From Pirellulales bacterium (GTDB lineage Bacteria; Planctomycetota; Planctomycetia; Pirellulales; Thermoguttaceae), in assembly GCA_016931995.1 (NCBI GenBank), contig JAFGDS010000148.1, positions 1 to 51,117 on the forward strand: a DNA stretch of 51,117 nucleotides. Reading direction: 5' to 3'. Of this stretch, positions 35,604-43,953 are shown piece after piece. The translations under genes and the position numbers were made by a program. The notes beneath the pieces are model-generated. The model had not been told where the DNA came from, did not search any database, and was given only the letters and a program-made list of their open reading frames with translations. The stretch's first letter is position 1, and each line of letters begins with the position of its first letter.

Positions 35604-35710
35604 GCGCGCGTGGGGTCGAGAGGACTGAACCGAGCCGGGCACGCCGGGCCACCGAGGCGTCTTTTCCCACGATCCGGCCGAACTCTCGACCTCATGGATG
35701 CGTAACAGAA

Positions 35711-36364
35711 ATGAACAGCACGATGGAACTGGACCGAAAGGCCGTTGCCCTCTTCGCCCCCTCGGATGAGCGGACCGACGAGGAGCTTCTCCTCGAGTAC
35801 CGCGACCGGGGGAACCGCGAGGCATTTGAACGGCTGGTCCATCGGTACGAACGGGAGCTGTACAACTACCTGCGCCATTACCTGGGCGATGCCCAGATGG
35901 CCGACGACGCCTTCCAAACGACGTTCCTCCAGGTTCACCTCAAGTGCGACACGTTCGAGCCGGATCGAAAGTTCCGACCCTGGCTCTACACCGTGGCGAC
36001 CAACCAGGCGATCGACGCCCAGCGGCGCAACCGACGCCATCGGATGGTGAGTCTGGACCGGCGTTTCGGAGCGGAGTCGGGCGACGACGTGACGGCGCTG
36101 GTCAACTTGCTGGACGCGCAAGAGGTCGATCCGCTGGACCAACTCGAGGCGGACGAGCGGGCCCGCGTGGTCCGCGACGCGGTGGACCGGTTGCCCGACG
36201 CCCTGCGGGAGGTGATCGCTCTGGTCTATTATCAGGGAATGAAGTATCGCGAGGCGGCCGACGTGCTTTCGATTCCCGTGGGAACCGTGAAGAGCCGTCT
36301 GCACGCCGCGGTGTACCGACTGAATGAAGCCTTGGCGCGAAGCCCACTTGCCGAAAATGAGTGA
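35711..36364 (+). CDS. ECF-type RNA polymerase sigma factor
   Basis: 217-aa sigma-70 family protein with only regions 2 and 4. Region 2 (about 28-98) has AFERLVHRYERELYNYLRH, DDAFQTTFLQVH and RPWLYTVATNQAIDAQRR. Region 4 (about 155-210) has LPDALREVIALVYYQGMKYR and IPVGTVKSRLHAAVYRL. The 25-residue N-terminal extension and the linker are ordinary. Its last codons overlap the next gene by 8 nt, so an anti-sigma-like partner is translated with it. Signal unknown. Confidence 0.93.
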   Translation: MNSTMELDRKAVALFAPSDERTDEELLLEYRDRGNREAFERLVHRYERELYNYLRHYLGDAQMADDAFQTTFLQVHLKCDTFEPDRKFRPWLYTVATNQAIDAQRRNRRHRMVSLDRRFGAESGDDVTALVNLLDAQEVDPLDQLEADERARVVRDAVDRLPDALREVIALVYYQGMKYREAADVLSIPVGTVKSRLHAAVYRLNEALARSPLAENE

Positions 36365-37355
36365 TCCCACGCGAGAACTTTTGCTCGGTTACCTGCTCGG
36401 GGCCCTCGAGGAGGACGAGCAGGCGGCGGCGGAAAGGAATTTGGCGAAAGACGCGGCTTTGCGGCGGGAGCTAACGGTGTTGAGCCGGTCACTCGCGCCG
36501 TTGGACGCGAGCCGCGCGCGGCACGAGCCGCCCGCGGGACTGGCCGAGCGGACGTGCCGATTCGTTTGGGCGAGCGGTCAAGCCCGAGCCGCCGCGCCCG
36601 TCCAGCCGCGGCGCGAGGCCCGGCCGACCCGGATGCGGCCCGTCACCTTGCCGGCGGTGGGCGAGGTTCAATACCGCTGGCAAGACGTGCTGGTGGTGGC
36701 CGGGGTGATCGTTGCCGCCAGCGTGCTCCTGTTTCCGGCGATCCACGGCAGCCGCGTGCAGGCGCGGCTTCTGGCGTGTCAAAACAACCTTCGCGAGCTA
36801 GGCGCGGCGCTGACGGAGTATGGCGAGCTCAACCACGGCTACTTCCCCCGGGTTCCGGCCCAGGGCAATCTGGCCGTCGCGTCGGTGTTCGCGCCGATCT
36901 TGAAGGACAGCCAGCTTCTGCCCAGCTTCCAGATGCTCGTGTGCCCCGATTCGCCCGCGGCCGAAGGCCCGGCGATCGACGTTCCGTCCTTGGCCCGGCT
37001 TGCCTCGATCGCGCAGCCCGACCAGCTCAAACGGCTTCAGGACCAGATGGGCGGGAGCTACGGATACACGCTGGGCTACCGCGACCGCGCCGGTTACCAC
37101 GGCACGCGAAATCTACGACGATCGCAATTTGCGTTGGCCTCCGATGCGCCCGCGCCCGGGCTTCCCGGCCGGCAGAGCCACAACCACGGCCGGCACGGGC
37201 AGAACTGCCTGATGGAGGACGGCCACGTGCGGTTCTTCGTCACGCCGCGGCCCGCGACCGACGACTTCTTCCTGAACGACGACGGCGCGGTCGCCGCCGG
37301 CGTCCACGTGAACGACTCCGTCATCGGCGCCGGCGCGACCCCGCCGCTGCCGTAG
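36357..37355 (+). CDS. Anti-sigma-like protein with DUF1559-like ectodomain
   Basis: 332 aa. The N-terminus (1-70: SDPTRELLLGYLLGALEEDE, then helical and charged) looks like a zinc-free anti-sigma domain. One membrane helix follows at about 110-128. The region after it, RVQARLLACQNNLRELGAAL then YFPRVPAQ, matches the segment that follows the pilin helix in DUF1559 proteins, and the end has HGQNCLMEDGHVRFF, an H-x-DG-like motif. So it joins a cytoplasmic sigma-binding part to an exported prepilin-like domain. The ATG at 36357 overlaps the sigma gene by 8 nt. Sigma regulation is inferred from position and domain order. Confidence 0.75.
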   Translation: MSDPTRELLLGYLLGALEEDEQAAAERNLAKDAALRRELTVLSRSLAPLDASRARHEPPAGLAERTCRFVWASGQARAAAPVQPRREARPTRMRPVTLPAVGEVQYRWQDVLVVAGVIVAASVLLFPAIHGSRVQARLLACQNNLRELGAALTEYGELNHGYFPRVPAQGNLAVASVFAPILKDSQLLPSFQMLVCPDSPAAEGPAIDVPSLARLASIAQPDQLKRLQDQMGGSYGYTLGYRDRAGYHGTRNLRRSQFALASDAPAPGLPGRQSHNHGRHGQNCLMEDGHVRFFVTPRPATDDFFLNDDGAVAAGVHVNDSVIGAGATPPLP

Positions 37356-37378: not shown

Positions 37379-39481
37379 CTAACGTCGCCAGGTTAACTGC
37401 GCGAAGACGGTCCGCCGGACGTCCATGGCGCCGTAGGCGGCACTGACGAGATTGAACTCGGGGTGTCCCTGATCGAGCAGGTTCGTGCCGACCACGGCCA
37501 CTTCGAGATCGCGGCGGGGCGTCCACGCCAGCCGCAGGTCCATCGTGAAGTAGTCCGGAATGGACTGGCCGACGATCGTGTCCACGTAGCGGAAGCCCGC
37601 GTCGGCCTGCCAGCGGTTGCCGAGGTCCCACTGGGCGCCGAGCCGTGCCTGGTTACGGGGATAGCCCTCGATGCCCATCGACCCCGCGTCGGCGGCCCAC
37701 CACTCGTACGACCGCAGGAAGCTGTAGGATCCGTCGAGTCGCCACGTGTCGGAGACGGCCCACTGCGCGGCCCACTCGAAGCCGTACGTGTGGCCGCGTC
37801 CGGCGTTGTCGTGGATGACCGGATAAATCCAATAGCCCGGCCCCACGTACCGATCGCCGGAGCGGGGACCGATCATCTCCTCGTAGACGTTGAAGAACAA
37901 AGCGACGTCCCACGCGAAGCGCTCCGTGGTCTGCTCGCGGTAGCCGAGTTCGTACGCCATGAGCGTTTCGGATTTGACGTCCCGATACGGATTGTACTGC
38001 TGGAACGCGGTGGACGGCGGGTCGGCCACGAACCACGGACCGTAGCGGAAAATGCTGTCGCGTTCGACCCGCGACGGCAGCCGCACCGCCCGCGACACCG
38101 CGCCCCACACGGCATGCTTCTTATCCGGCGCCCACAAGAGCCTCGCGCTGGGCTGAACCTCGAAACCCGTGTAGGAGTTATTCTCGAGCTTGGTTCCCAC
38201 GGTGAAAAACAGTTCGTCCTCGCGCAACGTGATTTCGTCCTGGATGAAACCGCTAAAGAGACGATACGTGTCCGCCGGCGGGACCATGGTGACGAGGAAT
38301 GTGCTGTTGGGCATCCGGTTGTGGATCTGCCGCGAGTCCAACCCCCAAATGCACTGCTGGCGGTCGGTCAGCGGGAAACGGTGTTGGAACTCCACGTCAA
38401 ACGCCGTGGTTTCCTGTTTGAAGGCGTACGAGTCGCGGAACGTGCGATCGTAGTACATCTGGATCGTGTAGTCGGAGTCATCGCTGAACTTGTGCGTCCA
38501 GCGCCACAGCAGATTGGCCCCCGTGACGCCTTCGTCCTCGGTGTAGGGCTCGAAGTAGGGCGGAGTGGGAAACATGCGCGCGCCGAAGTTGCCGACGTTG
38601 CCGCCGTAGTAGTCGCCCAGCACCGTGAGCGTGTCCTGGCCGTGGCGATCCAAGTCGTAGTCCACCCGGAAGCCGCCGTGCCCCATCCGCCAATCATCGT
38701 AGTCAAAGGTCGGATGCAGCTCGTGTCCACGCTCGAAATGGCGGCCGTAGATCCGCCAGTTCAGCCCCTGGCCGTTGTTGCCGCCGACGCGGACGCTGCT
38801 TATGGACTTGTCGAGATTGCCGCCGCCGGTTTGAACCAACGCGCCCTGGGTGTCTTGCGCCTTTTTGGTGATGACGTTGATGACGCCGTTCACCGCGTTG
38901 GCGCCCCAGAGGGTGCCGCCGGGACCGCGGATGATCTCGATCCGCTCGACGTCCTCCAGGAGCAGGTCCTGCGCGTCCCAGTAGACGCCGGAACAGTATT
39001 GGTTGTACACCGTGCGGCCGTCGATTAACACGAGCAGCTTGTTGGCGAAACGACCTTGCGCGCCGCGAATACTGATCGCCCAGGTGTACGAGTTGACGCG
39101 GGCGACGTTGACGCCGGGGGCCAGGCGGAGCACTTCGGGCACGCTGGTGGCGCCGCTGCGGCGGATCATCTCGTTGCTGATGACGAACACGGCCGCCGGC
39201 GAGCGGCCCACCGTGCTCTCGTGCTTGGCGACGCTGGTGACCTCGACGTCCATCGAGGGGACTTTGACGTCCACCTTGCCGAGCTGGTCGATGTCCATGT
39301 CGAGGATGTCGCTCTTCGCGGCTGGATCAATCGCGTCGCTCGGCAGCGGCGCCGGGGCCACGGTCTCCATGTTGGGCGATTGCGCCGCGCCCGGCAAGAC
39401 GGTGGCGACAAGAATCCCAAGCGAAGAGGCCAGCCCAATTAGCGTCTGGCGCGTCCACGCCCCATTCGTCGTTGCGAACAT
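37379..39481 (-). CDS. TonB-dependent outer-membrane receptor (1)
   Basis: 700-aa receptor that pulls a ligand through the outer membrane using TonB energy. A signal peptide is followed by DILDMDIDQLGKVDVKVPSM and a plug domain with VFVISNEMIRRSGATSVPEV, LRLAPGVNVARV, LLVLIDGRTVYN and EIIRGPGGTLWGANAVNGVI. The rest is a beta barrel with alternating aromatic strands, ending VFAQLTWRR. GGAG lies 4-5 nt before the ATG. It is the third gene of a minus-strand run behind receptor 2 and a YfiR-like gene, and shares domain plan with receptor 2. Ligand unknown. Confidence 0.92.
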   Translation of the reverse strand: MFATTNGAWTRQTLIGLASSLGILVATVLPGAAQSPNMETVAPAPLPSDAIDPAAKSDILDMDIDQLGKVDVKVPSMDVEVTSVAKHESTVGRSPAAVFVISNEMIRRSGATSVPEVLRLAPGVNVARVNSYTWAISIRGAQGRFANKLLVLIDGRTVYNQYCSGVYWDAQDLLLEDVERIEIIRGPGGTLWGANAVNGVINVITKKAQDTQGALVQTGGGNLDKSISSVRVGGNNGQGLNWRIYGRHFERGHELHPTFDYDDWRMGHGGFRVDYDLDRHGQDTLTVLGDYYGGNVGNFGARMFPTPPYFEPYTEDEGVTGANLLWRWTHKFSDDSDYTIQMYYDRTFRDSYAFKQETTAFDVEFQHRFPLTDRQQCIWGLDSRQIHNRMPNSTFLVTMVPPADTYRLFSGFIQDEITLREDELFFTVGTKLENNSYTGFEVQPSARLLWAPDKKHAVWGAVSRAVRLPSRVERDSIFRYGPWFVADPPSTAFQQYNPYRDVKSETLMAYELGYREQTTERFAWDVALFFNVYEEMIGPRSGDRYVGPGYWIYPVIHDNAGRGHTYGFEWAAQWAVSDTWRLDGSYSFLRSYEWWAADAGSMGIEGYPRNQARLGAQWDLGNRWQADAGFRYVDTIVGQSIPDYFTMDLRLAWTPRRDLEVAVVGTNLLDQGHPEFNLVSAAYGAMDVRRTVFAQLTWRR

Positions 39482-40322: not shown

Positions 40323-42281
40323 CTAGTAGCGCCACGAGACCATTCCGTAGACGCCGGGCTCGACCTCCGTGGGGATGGAAACGTAGTCGTCCGCGAATTC
40401 GTAGTGCGCGCCGGCAAGCAGATTCTGTCCCACGACGGCCAGTTCGAGGTTCTTCCGCGGCTGCCAGGCCAGTCGCACGTCGCCGGCGAGATAGCTGGGC
40501 ACTCCAATCGCCAACGCGTCGACGTAGCGGAGGATCGCGTCGAACGTGACGTTCGCGCCCAAGTCCCAGCCGGATTGGGCCGACCACATGTTCCGCGGCG
40601 TGCCCCCGGCAAAATAAGTCGGAAAGTAGCCCGCGGCGTAGTCGACGTCTTGCACGAAGAATGTGTACGATCCGGACAGATGCCAGTGTTTGGTCGCCTG
40701 ATACGTGGCGTTGCACTCGAACCCGTACGTGTCGGCCTTGCCCACGTTGTAGTAGTAGAAAAAGGACGGCGTGCCCAGCAGGCTGTCGTAGCGGCTGAAG
40801 AAGGTGGTGAACTCCCAGAAGAAGCGGTCGGTGGGCTGCTGGCGGACGCCGAGCTCGTAGCTCAGGGCGTTCTCCGATTTGGGAAGGATGAAGACGCGCT
40901 CCATGAGCGAGGGCGTGCGCACCGCGCGGCTGATGGCGCCCCAGAAAGACGTCCGCTCGCTGGGCGTGTAGGTGAGCCGCGCGGTGGGTTGATACTCGAA
41001 GTCGGTGACGCTGTTGTGGTCGAACTTCGAGCCGAACGTGGCGAACCACCGGTCTTCGACCAGCGTGATCGTGTCCTGGACGAAGTAGCTGGGGATCTGC
41101 TCGCCGTCGTGGACGGTAATGATCCCCGGCCCCATCACCCATCGTTCATCCGAATTCCGGTAACCCAGCCCCCAGACGATGTCGTGGCGGCCGCGGATCA
41201 TGTGGTACTGATAGTCGAAGTCGAACGTCGCGACGTTGTTCAGGTTGGCGCCGAGGGCATAGGGATTGTAGTAGTAGAGCTGCACGGCCCAGTCGGTGTC
41301 TTCGTCCACCTGACGGCTCCAGCGGGTGAGGATCCGCGAGGTCTTGAAATCCATGGGCGCGACGGGCGGATCCGGCGGCGTGTGGACGCCGGTCTGGTTG
41401 TCCTCGCCGGAGTAGAAGTCGCCTTGGATGGTGAAGGTGTCGCGGCGGGTGGGCGTCCAGTCGGCGCGGAAGCCGCCCTGGTTGAGCCGCGGGTCGTCGG
41501 CCGCGCGCGCCGGGCCGGCGAGGTGGCCCTTGCCGTCCTCCAGGTTCATGCCGTACATACGCCAGTGCAGATTGCCGCTCTGGCCGCCGACGCGGGCGTT
41601 GGTGAACTGCCGGTGCTCGGTCCCGCCACCGCCGTCGACGTGGATGCCGTGGGTGTCCTTGGCCTGTTTCGTGACGATGTTGATGATGCCGTTGACCGCG
41701 TTGGCGCCCCAGACCGTGGCCCCGGGACCGCGGATCACCTCGATCCGGTCGACGTCCTCGAGCATCACGTATTCGCGTTCCCAGAAGACGCCGCTGTGCG
41801 TGGGGCTATAGATCGCCACGCCGTCGATCTGCACCAGCAGCTTATTGGCGAATCGGGCGTTGAACCCTCGGATCGAAATCGCCCAGGCGCTGGCGTTGAT
41901 CCGGACGACGCTCACGCCGGGCACCAGGCGCAAGGCCTCGGGCACGCTGCGGGCGCCGCTCCGCTTGATCATCTCGTTGGTCAGGACGTAGACGGCCGCG
42001 GCCGAGCGCCCGATGGGTTGGGCCGTCCGCGAGACGCTCGTCACCTCGACCTCCATCGAGGGGACCTTCACGTCCACGCGGGCCAACTGGTCGATGTCCA
42101 TGTCGAGGATGTCGCCCTGGGCCGCGGGCGCATCGCCCGGCATTGGCGCGGGGGCCACCGCGCCGGCCGTTCCTGTTTGGGCCGCACACCAGGAAGCCGG
42201 CAACACGATAAGAATCGCCAACGGAATGGCCAGCCAGGCCGACACCCGAGTCTTCCGCACGCCGTCGCTTGTTGCGAACAT
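40323..42281 (-). CDS. TonB-dependent outer-membrane receptor (2)
   Basis: 652 aa, same plan as receptor 1: signal peptide, DILDMDIDQLARVDVKVPSM, plug (VYVLTNEMIKRSGARSVPEA, LLVQIDGVAIYS, EVIRGPGATVWGANAVNGII) and a beta barrel ending YGMVSWRY. The two plugs are close enough to imply duplication; the barrels differ more. The start at 42281 is chosen because both receptors then begin MFAT; an ATG at 42308 would add nine residues. First gene of the receptor-YfiR-receptor run. Ligand unknown. Confidence 0.92.
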   Translation of the reverse strand: MFATSDGVRKTRVSAWLAIPLAILIVLPASWCAAQTGTAGAVAPAPMPGDAPAAQGDILDMDIDQLARVDVKVPSMEVEVTSVSRTAQPIGRSAAAVYVLTNEMIKRSGARSVPEALRLVPGVSVVRINASAWAISIRGFNARFANKLLVQIDGVAIYSPTHSGVFWEREYVMLEDVDRIEVIRGPGATVWGANAVNGIINIVTKQAKDTHGIHVDGGGGTEHRQFTNARVGGQSGNLHWRMYGMNLEDGKGHLAGPARAADDPRLNQGGFRADWTPTRRDTFTIQGDFYSGEDNQTGVHTPPDPPVAPMDFKTSRILTRWSRQVDEDTDWAVQLYYYNPYALGANLNNVATFDFDYQYHMIRGRHDIVWGLGYRNSDERWVMGPGIITVHDGEQIPSYFVQDTITLVEDRWFATFGSKFDHNSVTDFEYQPTARLTYTPSERTSFWGAISRAVRTPSLMERVFILPKSENALSYELGVRQQPTDRFFWEFTTFFSRYDSLLGTPSFFYYYNVGKADTYGFECNATYQATKHWHLSGSYTFFVQDVDYAAGYFPTYFAGGTPRNMWSAQSGWDLGANVTFDAILRYVDALAIGVPSYLAGDVRLAWQPRKNLELAVVGQNLLAGAHYEFADDYVSIPTEVEPGVYGMVSWRY

Positions 42282-42925
42282 GGCGGCTGTACCCCCAATT
42301 GAATCCAATGTGGCGCCGACGGAATGTCACCCCCCAGGCGTGCATCCGTCCGAGCTGCCGCTCCACGGATCCCCGCTATGGCGGTGTGCTGCCCGTCGCG
42401 ACCGCCACCCCTTGCCGTACCCGCCGAACGGGACTCGCTTCATTCCTCCTATCGGGAACATCCCTCAAAGCCATGAGAGTCAACAATCCAACCCGCAAAC
42501 TCACCGCCGAAACGAAAGGGGACATGTGGCCCGCGAAAGATGCGGAGTTTTTAGGGCCTCCGCGGCGAGAGGCCGACGGCCGTCGCCGCGGAACGCCTCG
42601 GCCTCGACCCGGTTGGCTTTCCCCATAATTCCGCGAACCCGACCGCCCCCGGCCGTGTCTAAAGCCCATTAGCGGACCATTTGGAGCGGAAAATACCCCC
42701 ACTGGGGAATGTCGCCCATCACGTGTTGACTTCCGGGGCGTTTTCCGTCATTGTAGAAAATGGTGGGGAGTTGCCGGGTGTTTGGGGTAGGGCGCCGTGG
42801 CAAATGCCCAGCGACCCTTACGAATAGGGAAACAGGACGCCGATCTTCCTTGAAAGGGAAGCGAAGCGTTGGGGCTTCTTTTTACCCACTTCTTTTTTTA
42901 CCGCGCGAGGCGCAGAGGTAGTGCG

Positions 42926-43374: not shown

Positions 43375-43953
43375 ATGAACGTTTGCCAAGACGACCCAAC
43401 TTCCTTCGACACGGAGCTGGTCCGGTTGGTCCGGGCCGCGCAGGCGGGGGATCCTCGCGCGTTCGACCGGCTCCTCGAGCGGTTCGAGCCCACCGTGCAG
43501 GCCATCGTATTGCGGCGGCTGCACAATCGGGCCGACGCCCAGGAGCTGTGCCAAGAGGTCTTCATCCAAGCCCTGCGGAAGCTCCACCAGTTGGACGACC
43601 CCCGCTGCTTTGCCGGCTGGTTGCGAGCCATTGCCGTGCGGATGGCGATCAATCGGGCGGTCCGGCGCGGGCCAGTGGCCACGATCGAGCCCAGCCGGAT
43701 CGAGGCGGGCTACGCGGAGACCGAGACCCCGCTGGGCGCCGCCCTGGCGCACGAGCGCCGCACCCAGGTCCATCGCGGGCTGGGCCGGCTCCAGTCGCTC
43801 GATCGCGATACGCTCGTGGCGTTCTACTTCCGCGGGCAATCGCTGGTCCAGATGAGCGACGAGTTCCGCTCGCCGGTGGGCACGATCAAGCGTCGGCTGC
43901 ACGTCGCGCGGAAACGCCTGGCCAAGGAGCTGGCCGAGCTCGCCCCGGCGTGA
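43375..43953 (+). CDS. ECF-type sigma factor (second)
   Basis: 192 aa. Region 2 has AFDRLLERFEPTVQAIVLRRL, DAQELCQEVFIQALRKL and FAGWLRAIAVRMAINRAVRR. Region 4 has RLQSLDRDTLVAFYFRGQSL and SPVGTIKRRLHVARKRLAKE. It differs clearly from the 35711 sigma factor, so they are not recent duplicates. No anti-sigma gene follows; a palindromic element and then the convergent secretin gene come next. Region-4 wording (SLVQMSDEF, SPVGTIKRR) resembles planctomycete-specific ECF groups. Confidence 0.9.
   Translation: MNVCQDDPTSFDTELVRLVRAAQAGDPRAFDRLLERFEPTVQAIVLRRLHNRADAQELCQEVFIQALRKLHQLDDPRCFAGWLRAIAVRMAINRAVRRGPVATIEPSRIEAGYAETETPLGAALAHERRTQVHRGLGRLQSLDRDTLVAFYFRGQSLVQMSDEFRSPVGTIKRRLHVARKRLAKELAELAPA

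Follow-up and report, generated by a model that had tools for sequence, protein, structure and literature searches.

The envelope stress response of Escherichia coli is run by the extracytoplasmic function (ECF) sigma factor RpoE (sigma-E) and the anti-sigma factor RseA, and BamA and a DegP-type protease are among its targets. A variety of outer domains is already known from class I anti-sigma factors, and in the PilS-PilR system the histidine kinase PilS is thought to sense the pilin PilA. Here we analysed contig JAFGDS010000148.1 of a Pirellulales bacterium (51,117 nucleotides, referred to as the window; coordinates are window positions unless a residue is given), in which an ECF sigma factor gene overlaps the gene for an anti-sigma factor with a pilin-derived outer half. 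Computation places this fusion protein in the sequence register of prepilins, links it to the sigma gene in its relatives and finds the promoter motif of the pair enriched upstream of envelope genes. The pair probably works as an autoregulated, self-contained switch of the sigma-E/RseA type that responds to envelope stress through a pilin-derived sensor.

The pair resembles RpoE-RseA in that the gene for a membrane anti-sigma factor lies downstream of an ECF sigma gene, a putatively autoregulatory promoter has an AAC-type -35 element, and the predicted targets are envelope genes including those for BamA and a DegP-type protease. It differs from RpoE-RseA in having a pilin-like outer fold instead of the RseA C-terminal domain, CGTA as its -10 element and no further conserved gene beside the pair. 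A pilin helix taking part in inner-membrane signalling would be a parallel to PilS-PilR, although the pilin PilA is the ligand there whereas the pilin fold would itself be the sensor here. A pilin-type or DUF1559 anti-sigma sensor was not described in the open-access literature searched, the main ECF classification papers lying outside that search. New here is the GAAC-N16/17-CGTA motif at the pair and at envelope genes.

Results

An anti-sigma domain is fused to a pilin-like outer half

The sigma factor gene (35,711–36,364, plus strand) encodes 217 amino acids with Sigma70 regions 2 and 4 only, as in ECF sigma factors; both matches exceeded the Pfam cut-offs (Sigma70_r2, E 5e-19, 68.4 bits; Sigma70_r4_2, E 3e-14, 52.8 bits). 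The fusion gene, which runs from an ATG at 36,357 to a stop codon ending at 37,355 on the plus strand, encodes 332 amino acids and overlaps the sigma gene by 8 bp. An alternative in-frame ATG at 36,324 would give a longer open reading frame; the alignments of relatives start at 36,357. The product, hereafter the window protein, consists of an anti-sigma domain (residues 1–78), a single membrane helix and an outer domain, and has one standout hydrophobic segment (residues 111–129). A sequence-only reading of this DNA had described a sigma-overlapping gene with an anti-sigma part, one membrane helix and a prepilin-like outer domain, a layout borne out by the open reading frame, the profile matches and the structural model.

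The full-length protein was modelled with AlphaFold from 50 sequences (mean predicted local distance difference test score, pLDDT, 90.8; predicted template modelling score 0.68), and structures were compared using Foldseek and a second aligner. The model comprised four N-terminal helices, a weak linker, a 51-residue helix (residues 108–158) and a head.

Residues 1–78 (36,357–36,590, plus strand) were assigned to a class I anti-sigma domain. Residues 5–98 matched two NCBIfam anti-sigma models (E 7e-9 and 1e-8), the first of which matched 49 of the 50 aligned proteins, window protein included, at E ≤ 0.01. The curated-family cut-offs were not reached (NF052375, 35.9 bits against 100; NF010501, 34.9 against 225), both being whole-protein models built for other anti-sigma factors. 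Helices at residues 4–14, 19–31 and 33–53 form a three-helix bundle in the model, with a separate fourth helix at 62–78, the architecture given for class I anti-sigma domains in one published description (PMC7406223). The linker that follows (residues 79–105; 36,591–36,671, plus strand) is presumably cytoplasmic and was modelled at low confidence, with pLDDT values of 54–77 in ten-residue blocks.

Comparison of residues 2–74 with solved anti-sigma domains returned RslA, RsiW, MucA, the SigK partner and ChrR at Z scores of 4.1–6.8. The range was 5.5–6.8 for the domains from SigW-RsiW of Bacillus subtilis, SigL-RslA and SigK with its partner from Mycobacterium tuberculosis, and AlgU-MucA of Pseudomonas aeruginosa. 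The proteins studied here differ from these four systems in their outer half, and their main family has no zinc motif. The N-terminal domain would hold and inhibit this sigma factor; the one piece of structural evidence for such a contact is the match to anti-sigma domains solved together with their sigma factors. The Hx3Cx2C zinc motif was absent from all 51 main-family members, which rules out a zinc switch for that family, and Cys67 was kept in 36 of the 51. The same publication puts class I anti-sigma domains lacking the zinc motif at about 44% and describes fused domains as conserved within groups (PMC7406223).

The outer half keeps the register of DUF1559 prepilins

From residue 105/106 onward the full model matched type IV pilins, the alignments with full-length entries starting no more than a few residues from pilin residue 1. 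Residues 106–332 modelled alone gave a mean pLDDT of 95.0 and again one long helix, and each of the 11 PDB entries listed at Z ≥ 2 was a type IV pilin or a pseudopilin, among them PulG and the Xcp pseudopilus (best pilin match Z 5.9, 116 residues at 3.1 Å). A long alpha-1 helix, here of 51 residues, joined to an alpha/beta head is the make-up of a pilin fold; the head corresponds to residues 159–332 (36,831–37,352, plus strand) and contains the invariant C196. Residues 106 to about 306 share their fold with the type II secretion pseudopilin PulG (Z 4.8) and the type IV pilin PilA4 (Z 5.9), from which the window protein differs by the missing processing residue, a larger head and the lack of a filament gene among its conserved neighbours.

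The alpha-1 helix was numbered with residue 106 of the window protein as pilin position 1, so that it covers positions 1–53 (residues 106–158; 36,672–36,830, plus strand) and has Asp5, Pro22, Cys36 and a Gln at -1. All 21 DUF1559 prepilins sampled from the same genome have an ungapped helix of the form G/A(-1) F1 E5 P22 C36, its placement having used the -1 residue, F1, E5 and P22 and not C36. The fusion family falls into the same ungapped register, with Asp5 in 50 of 51 members, where it replaces the Glu of prepilins, and Pro22 and Cys36 in every one; position 1 is Trp or Phe in 44 of the 51. The shared register indicates that the anti-sigma part stops at the would-be prepilin peptidase cut (105/106). 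The residue at -1 is Gly or Ala in each of the 21 prepilins (18 Gly, 3 Ala) versus Arg in 20, Gly in 9 and Ala in 2 of the 51 fusion proteins. Gly or Ala is missing at this position from 40 members, the window protein with its Gln among them, and prepilin processing was rejected for most of the family on that count.

Profiles built for DUF1559 proteins matched the outer half weakly. PF07596 (DUF1559) matched the window protein at E 6e-4 with 20.4 bits, below the gathering cut-off of 23.3, and 27 of the 50 aligned proteins at E ≤ 0.01; a PF07596 search of the own genome listed 62 match segments, none of them from the window protein. The CQNNLRELG motif (residues 141–149; 36,777–36,803, plus strand) starts with the invariant C141 at pilin position 36. 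Nearer the C terminus stands H277-X10-DG (37,185–37,223, plus strand), a family variant of H-X9-DG whose spacing, one residue longer, recurs in 49 of 51 members; the H-X9-DG model (TIGR04294) gave 15.6 bits against a cut-off of 19 on the window protein and matched 12 of the 50 aligned proteins at E ≤ 0.01. These two motifs had led the sequence-only reading to a pseudopilin origin for the outer domain, which the register, the weak profile matches and the structure all support. The invariant residues of the outer part are C141, L182, C196, G240, D263, H277, N283, G315 and D320.

Planctomycete DUF1559/H-X9-DG proteins thus share with the fusion family the ungapped Asp/Glu5-Pro22-Cys36 helix, a CxNNL motif and an H...DG end. 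Unlike them, the fusion proteins have an anti-sigma domain joined on where cleavage would occur and have mostly lost the cleavage residue, and the window protein scores below the Pfam cut-off. In Rhodopirellula baltica, one study interprets DUF1559 genes as encoding solute-binding proteins (PMC2754498).

The pair is conserved across the order

All 60 related genomes searched had some match to the window protein, many of these being DUF1559 proteins only. Strong matches (starting within the first 10 residues, E ≤ 1e-8, counted by hand) were present in at least 49 of the 60, or at least 50 with genome G052, which was counted because its locus aligns from residue 1. Those 50 genomes cover all 20 sampled families of the order. 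The strong matches numbered one to a genome and, in contrast to DUF1559 proteins, went with a sigma gene. In a phylum-wide sample, 127 of 392 genomes matched the family profile at E ≤ 1e-12. Among the matches listed, 12 were near-full-length, 11 from the window's own order and one (G432) from the same class, and most others spanned the pilin half only, with G024, G134 and G090 reaching well into the anti-sigma half. A set of 54 named loci came entirely from planctomycetes, except for one record titled just 'bacterium'; 20 were titled Pirellulales, Pirellulaceae or its genera, and two complete genomes were included (Planctomycetales bacterium 10988, CP043547, and Planctomycetes bacterium Pan216, CP036279).

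In 29 other loci a sigma gene 50–75% identical to that of the window lay upstream on the same strand (one locus, L028, contains only part of it), making 30 of 30 with the window. Because of this constant arrangement the pairing of sigma factor and fusion protein is not due to chance. The sigma gene was also upstream in 52 of the 54 named loci, the remaining two starting no more than 30 bases from a contig edge. Of the 52 pairs, 49 had a gap of -11 to 77 bp between the two genes and three a gap of 207–454 bp. A position beside an ECF sigma gene is the one expected of a class I anti-sigma factor, and this survey found no homologue away from sigma genes, the finding that would have spoken against a sensor for this sigma factor.

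Across 21 neighbourhoods, some of them cut short by contig ends near the pair, the sigma and anti-sigma genes alone were common to all. Other neighbours recurred in at most 3 of the 20 other loci, apart from further ECF sigma genes at three loci (27–35% identical to the sigma family of the pair). Assigning a function by gene neighbourhood was rejected, there being no widely conserved neighbour besides the sigma gene. In the window itself, a further ECF-type sigma gene, 27–29% identical to the sigma family of the pair, lies 6 kb downstream (43,375–43,953, plus strand). Two genes read by eye as TonB-dependent-receptor-like (37,379–39,481 and 40,323–42,308, minus strand) lie downstream, convergent with the pair, and are not widely conserved elsewhere. 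A sugar-isomerase-like gene, also read by eye, lies upstream and is not widely conserved at other loci.

A zinc-type version was found at two loci (L064 in G134, L380 in G090) from another family (f52) of the phylum, outside the class of the window. A sigma gene is followed there by a shorter anti-sigma factor made of an Hx3Cx2C domain, a pilin-like helix and a head, with zf-HC2 above its cut-off in L064. Both proteins keep Pro22 and Cys36, position 5 reads by eye as Gly or Ala, not Asp, and GAAC-N16-CGTA stands 14–15 bp ahead of the sigma start at both loci. A zinc-type query of the 392 genomes at E ≤ 1e-10 matched four proteins, the two just described and two from the window family. These versions indicate that the fusion and its promoter are older than the order or have spread beyond it.

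A two-box promoter motif precedes the sigma gene

Enumeration of two-box words upstream of 28 sigma genes returned GAAC...CGT/GTA as the top word, present in 26 of 28, whereas the leading words from 20 mononucleotide shuffles had counts of 8–10. The exact form GAAC-N16/17-CGTA was present in 28 of 30 loci; L028 has no upstream sequence and L025 has no motif. In the window the ECF-type motif is CGAAC-N17-CGTA (35,679–35,704, plus strand), putatively autoregulatory, with its CGTA ending 6 bp ahead of the sigma start codon. The CGTA ended 3–7 bp before the chosen sigma start in 25 of 28 loci, and the sigma mRNA is therefore probably leaderless or nearly so.

Among the named loci with at least 60 bp of upstream sequence, 50 of 51 had the motif (30 with N17, 20 with N16). 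The 288 permuted words, motif included, averaged 0.43 in this set, and the runner-up, a shifted form of the motif, reached 12. At the level of sequence, the pair has the putative autoregulated promoter of a sigma-E-type system, and we infer that this sigma factor uses GAAC-N16/17-CGTA promoters.

The motif is enriched upstream of envelope genes

Some of the CGAAC-N17-CGTA sites in the own genome precede, at short distance, genes that encode a BamA-type protein, proteases of the DegP/HtrA and Prc types, and an ABC-2 permease. The BamA-type protein had POTRA repeats above the cut-off and a BamA model match below it, the fragment being truncated by the end of the locus. Orthologues were taken from 30 relatives, and the motif within 500 bp upstream was ranked against 288 permuted words. 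It was found upstream of bamA in 7 of 28 loci, htrA in 8 of 30, prc in 6 of 30 (two of these loci being one gene) and the permease gene in 10 of 27; without the nominating genome the counts were 6 of 27, 7 of 29, 5 of 29 and 9 of 26, respectively. The motif ranked first of the 288 words for all four families alike, and the other words upstream of bamA, htrA and prc averaged 0.31–0.38, with maxima of 2, 4 and 3, respectively. For htrA, 8 of 21 close orthologues and none of 9 paralogues had a site. When own genome, paralogues and duplicate were set aside, 16 of 75 pooled regions had the motif at -300 to +60, and the background in the rest of those loci was 0.014 motif per 560 bp.

Outer-membrane assembly and periplasmic proteolysis, the target classes of sigma-E, are both represented in this enrichment, as predicted sites in a minority of loci. 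The suggestion that the sensor monitors the cell envelope or the secretion machine is strengthened in its first half by the motif at bamA, degP/htrA, prc and the permease gene; the secretion machine received no direct support. One study of Planctopirus limnophila reports bamA as essential and a group of 68 DUF1559 paralogues in the same species (PMC10632474).

Other candidates nominated by the pattern were genes for DksA, diacylglycerol kinase, a hydrolase, an ABC ATPase, and radical-SAM-like and recombinase-like proteins. The pattern also occurred in repeats. Two identical copies lie in the own genome (contigs C113 and C114; L116 and L117), one upstream of a gene read by eye as recombinase-like, and five near-identical copies of a repeat with the promoter pattern lie in genome G010 (L302, L304, L305, L308 and G010:C164:181-206). 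A second conserved element, CTTG-N18/19-GTAT, was seen in 19 of 27 bamA upstream regions (for example L126, L130 and L139), where it often precedes a TCTACGCGACC-like stretch; it may be promoter sequence, or else the end of a neighbouring coding region.

Discussion

We infer that the class I anti-sigma domain would tether the ECF sigma factor to the inner membrane. With the prepilin cleavage site mostly lost, the pilin-derived helix and outer domain would remain in the membrane and act as a sensor, not as a filament subunit. Envelope disturbance, the presumed signal, would be relayed inward by head and helix, most likely via proteolysis of the anti-sigma factor. The released sigma factor would transcribe its own operon from GAAC-N16/17-CGTA, and the same promoters would drive bamA for outer-membrane assembly, degP/htrA and prc for envelope proteolysis, and the ABC-2 permease gene.

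Several observations weigh against such a switch or its proposed targets. The motif showed no genome-wide excess: CGAAC-N17-CGTA occurred at 25 places in the own genome and the reversed pattern at 22, five of six other genomes were near the control, and in the sixth, G010, the count (59 versus 26; 30 of the 59 sites inspected) was inflated by a repeat. Because the totals sit near the control, the genome-wide pattern count was rejected as a test of the regulon. The exact motif was found in just 20–37% of the loci of each target family, a few of the sites lying 300–440 bp upstream, and for lptF it was found in 3 of 29 (2 of 28 without the nominating locus), level with the best permuted words. 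The rpoE-named gene RB2302 of R. baltica, which may or may not be this sigma factor, is given as unregulated under heat shock in one report (PMC2754498). On the structural side, Z scores were moderate (at best 6.8 for the anti-sigma half and 5.9 for the pilin half) and the matches came from the second aligner alone. Foldseek returned none for either model at E ≤ 0.001, and for the pilin-like part by itself it ranked unrelated structures highest. The root-mean-square deviation exceeded 8 Å for the RsiW and SigK-partner matches, and the helix-4 arrangement of the free model differs from that of the solved class I domains. Pairwise distances of the sigma factor correlated with those of the anti-sigma domain at r 0.57 and with those of the ectodomain at r 0.63, giving no specific sigma/anti-sigma co-evolution signal across the 66 pairs compared.

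A different signal is conceivable, though rather unlikely: the anti-sigma factor might monitor pilin traffic, its uncut helix lying in the prepilin pool and sensing DUF1559 load, assembly or the secretion machine. The main family keeps an acidic residue at position 5 and Pro22 although a filament role is not evident, and the own genome is rich in PF07596, as the listed segments show. One DUF1559 gene of that genome (L083, G000:C104) has a GAAC-N17-CGTA site that precedes its prepilin start and points the same way, which may be chance. The motif was found in 2 of 20 sampled DUF1559 start regions with both strands counted, against about 0.5 expected from the background rate, a yield that speaks against pilin traffic as the signal. 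So do the better supported targets, which are general envelope genes, the sigma gene as sole widely conserved neighbour, and the Gly or Ala read at position 5 in the two zinc-type proteins.

It is unlikely that the sites at bamA, htrA, prc and the permease gene belong to another ECF sigma factor and that the pair regulates only itself. AAC-type -35 elements are common to many ECF groups, another ECF factor might share this promoter, and the missing genome-wide excess would fit such an arrangement. The published account of R. baltica gives it 37 ECF genes (PMC2754498). Against a separate sigma factor stand the identical motif, orientation and spacer that mark the operon of the pair in 50 of 51 loci, and the top rank of the motif among permuted words upstream of four gene families.

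That the pilin-like part is a passive anchor, with the switch reading a cytoplasmic cue through the anti-sigma domain, is very unlikely. The relatives with an Hx3Cx2C domain, a motif that can sense redox, and the retention of Cys67 in most members would suit it; the nine invariant residues of the outer part and the complete absence of the zinc motif from the main family argue the other way. Least probable of all is that prepilin peptidase is the releasing protease, cutting at the cytoplasmic edge of the helix to free the anti-sigma domain and sigma factor, for although the anti-sigma part does end at 105/106 and the 9 Gly and 2 Ala at -1 would permit it, the other 40 members, unlike the sampled prepilins, lack the residue.

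An envelope-stress switch with a pilin-derived sensor is the reading we prefer. A bolder version, which we regard as speculative and rather unlikely, is that a pilin has been turned into a receptor: having lost the cleavage site and gained an anti-sigma domain at that exact point, the protein would stay uncut and permanently in the inner-membrane pilin pool, where it reports the load of pilin-like proteins or the secretion state, couples it to outer-membrane assembly and proteolysis, and forms the founding envelope-stress system of this planctomycete lineage.

Planctomycete cells are bounded by an unusual envelope, and their genomes encode many ECF sigma factors along with dozens of functionally uncharacterized DUF1559 pilin-like proteins. 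The pair is a candidate sigma-E of the order: it is conserved, its promoter motif is defined and its list of predicted targets is short. It offers a concrete handle on how planctomycetes may sense trouble in the envelope, and it is an instance of a pilin fold put to new use in the outer half of a transcription switch.

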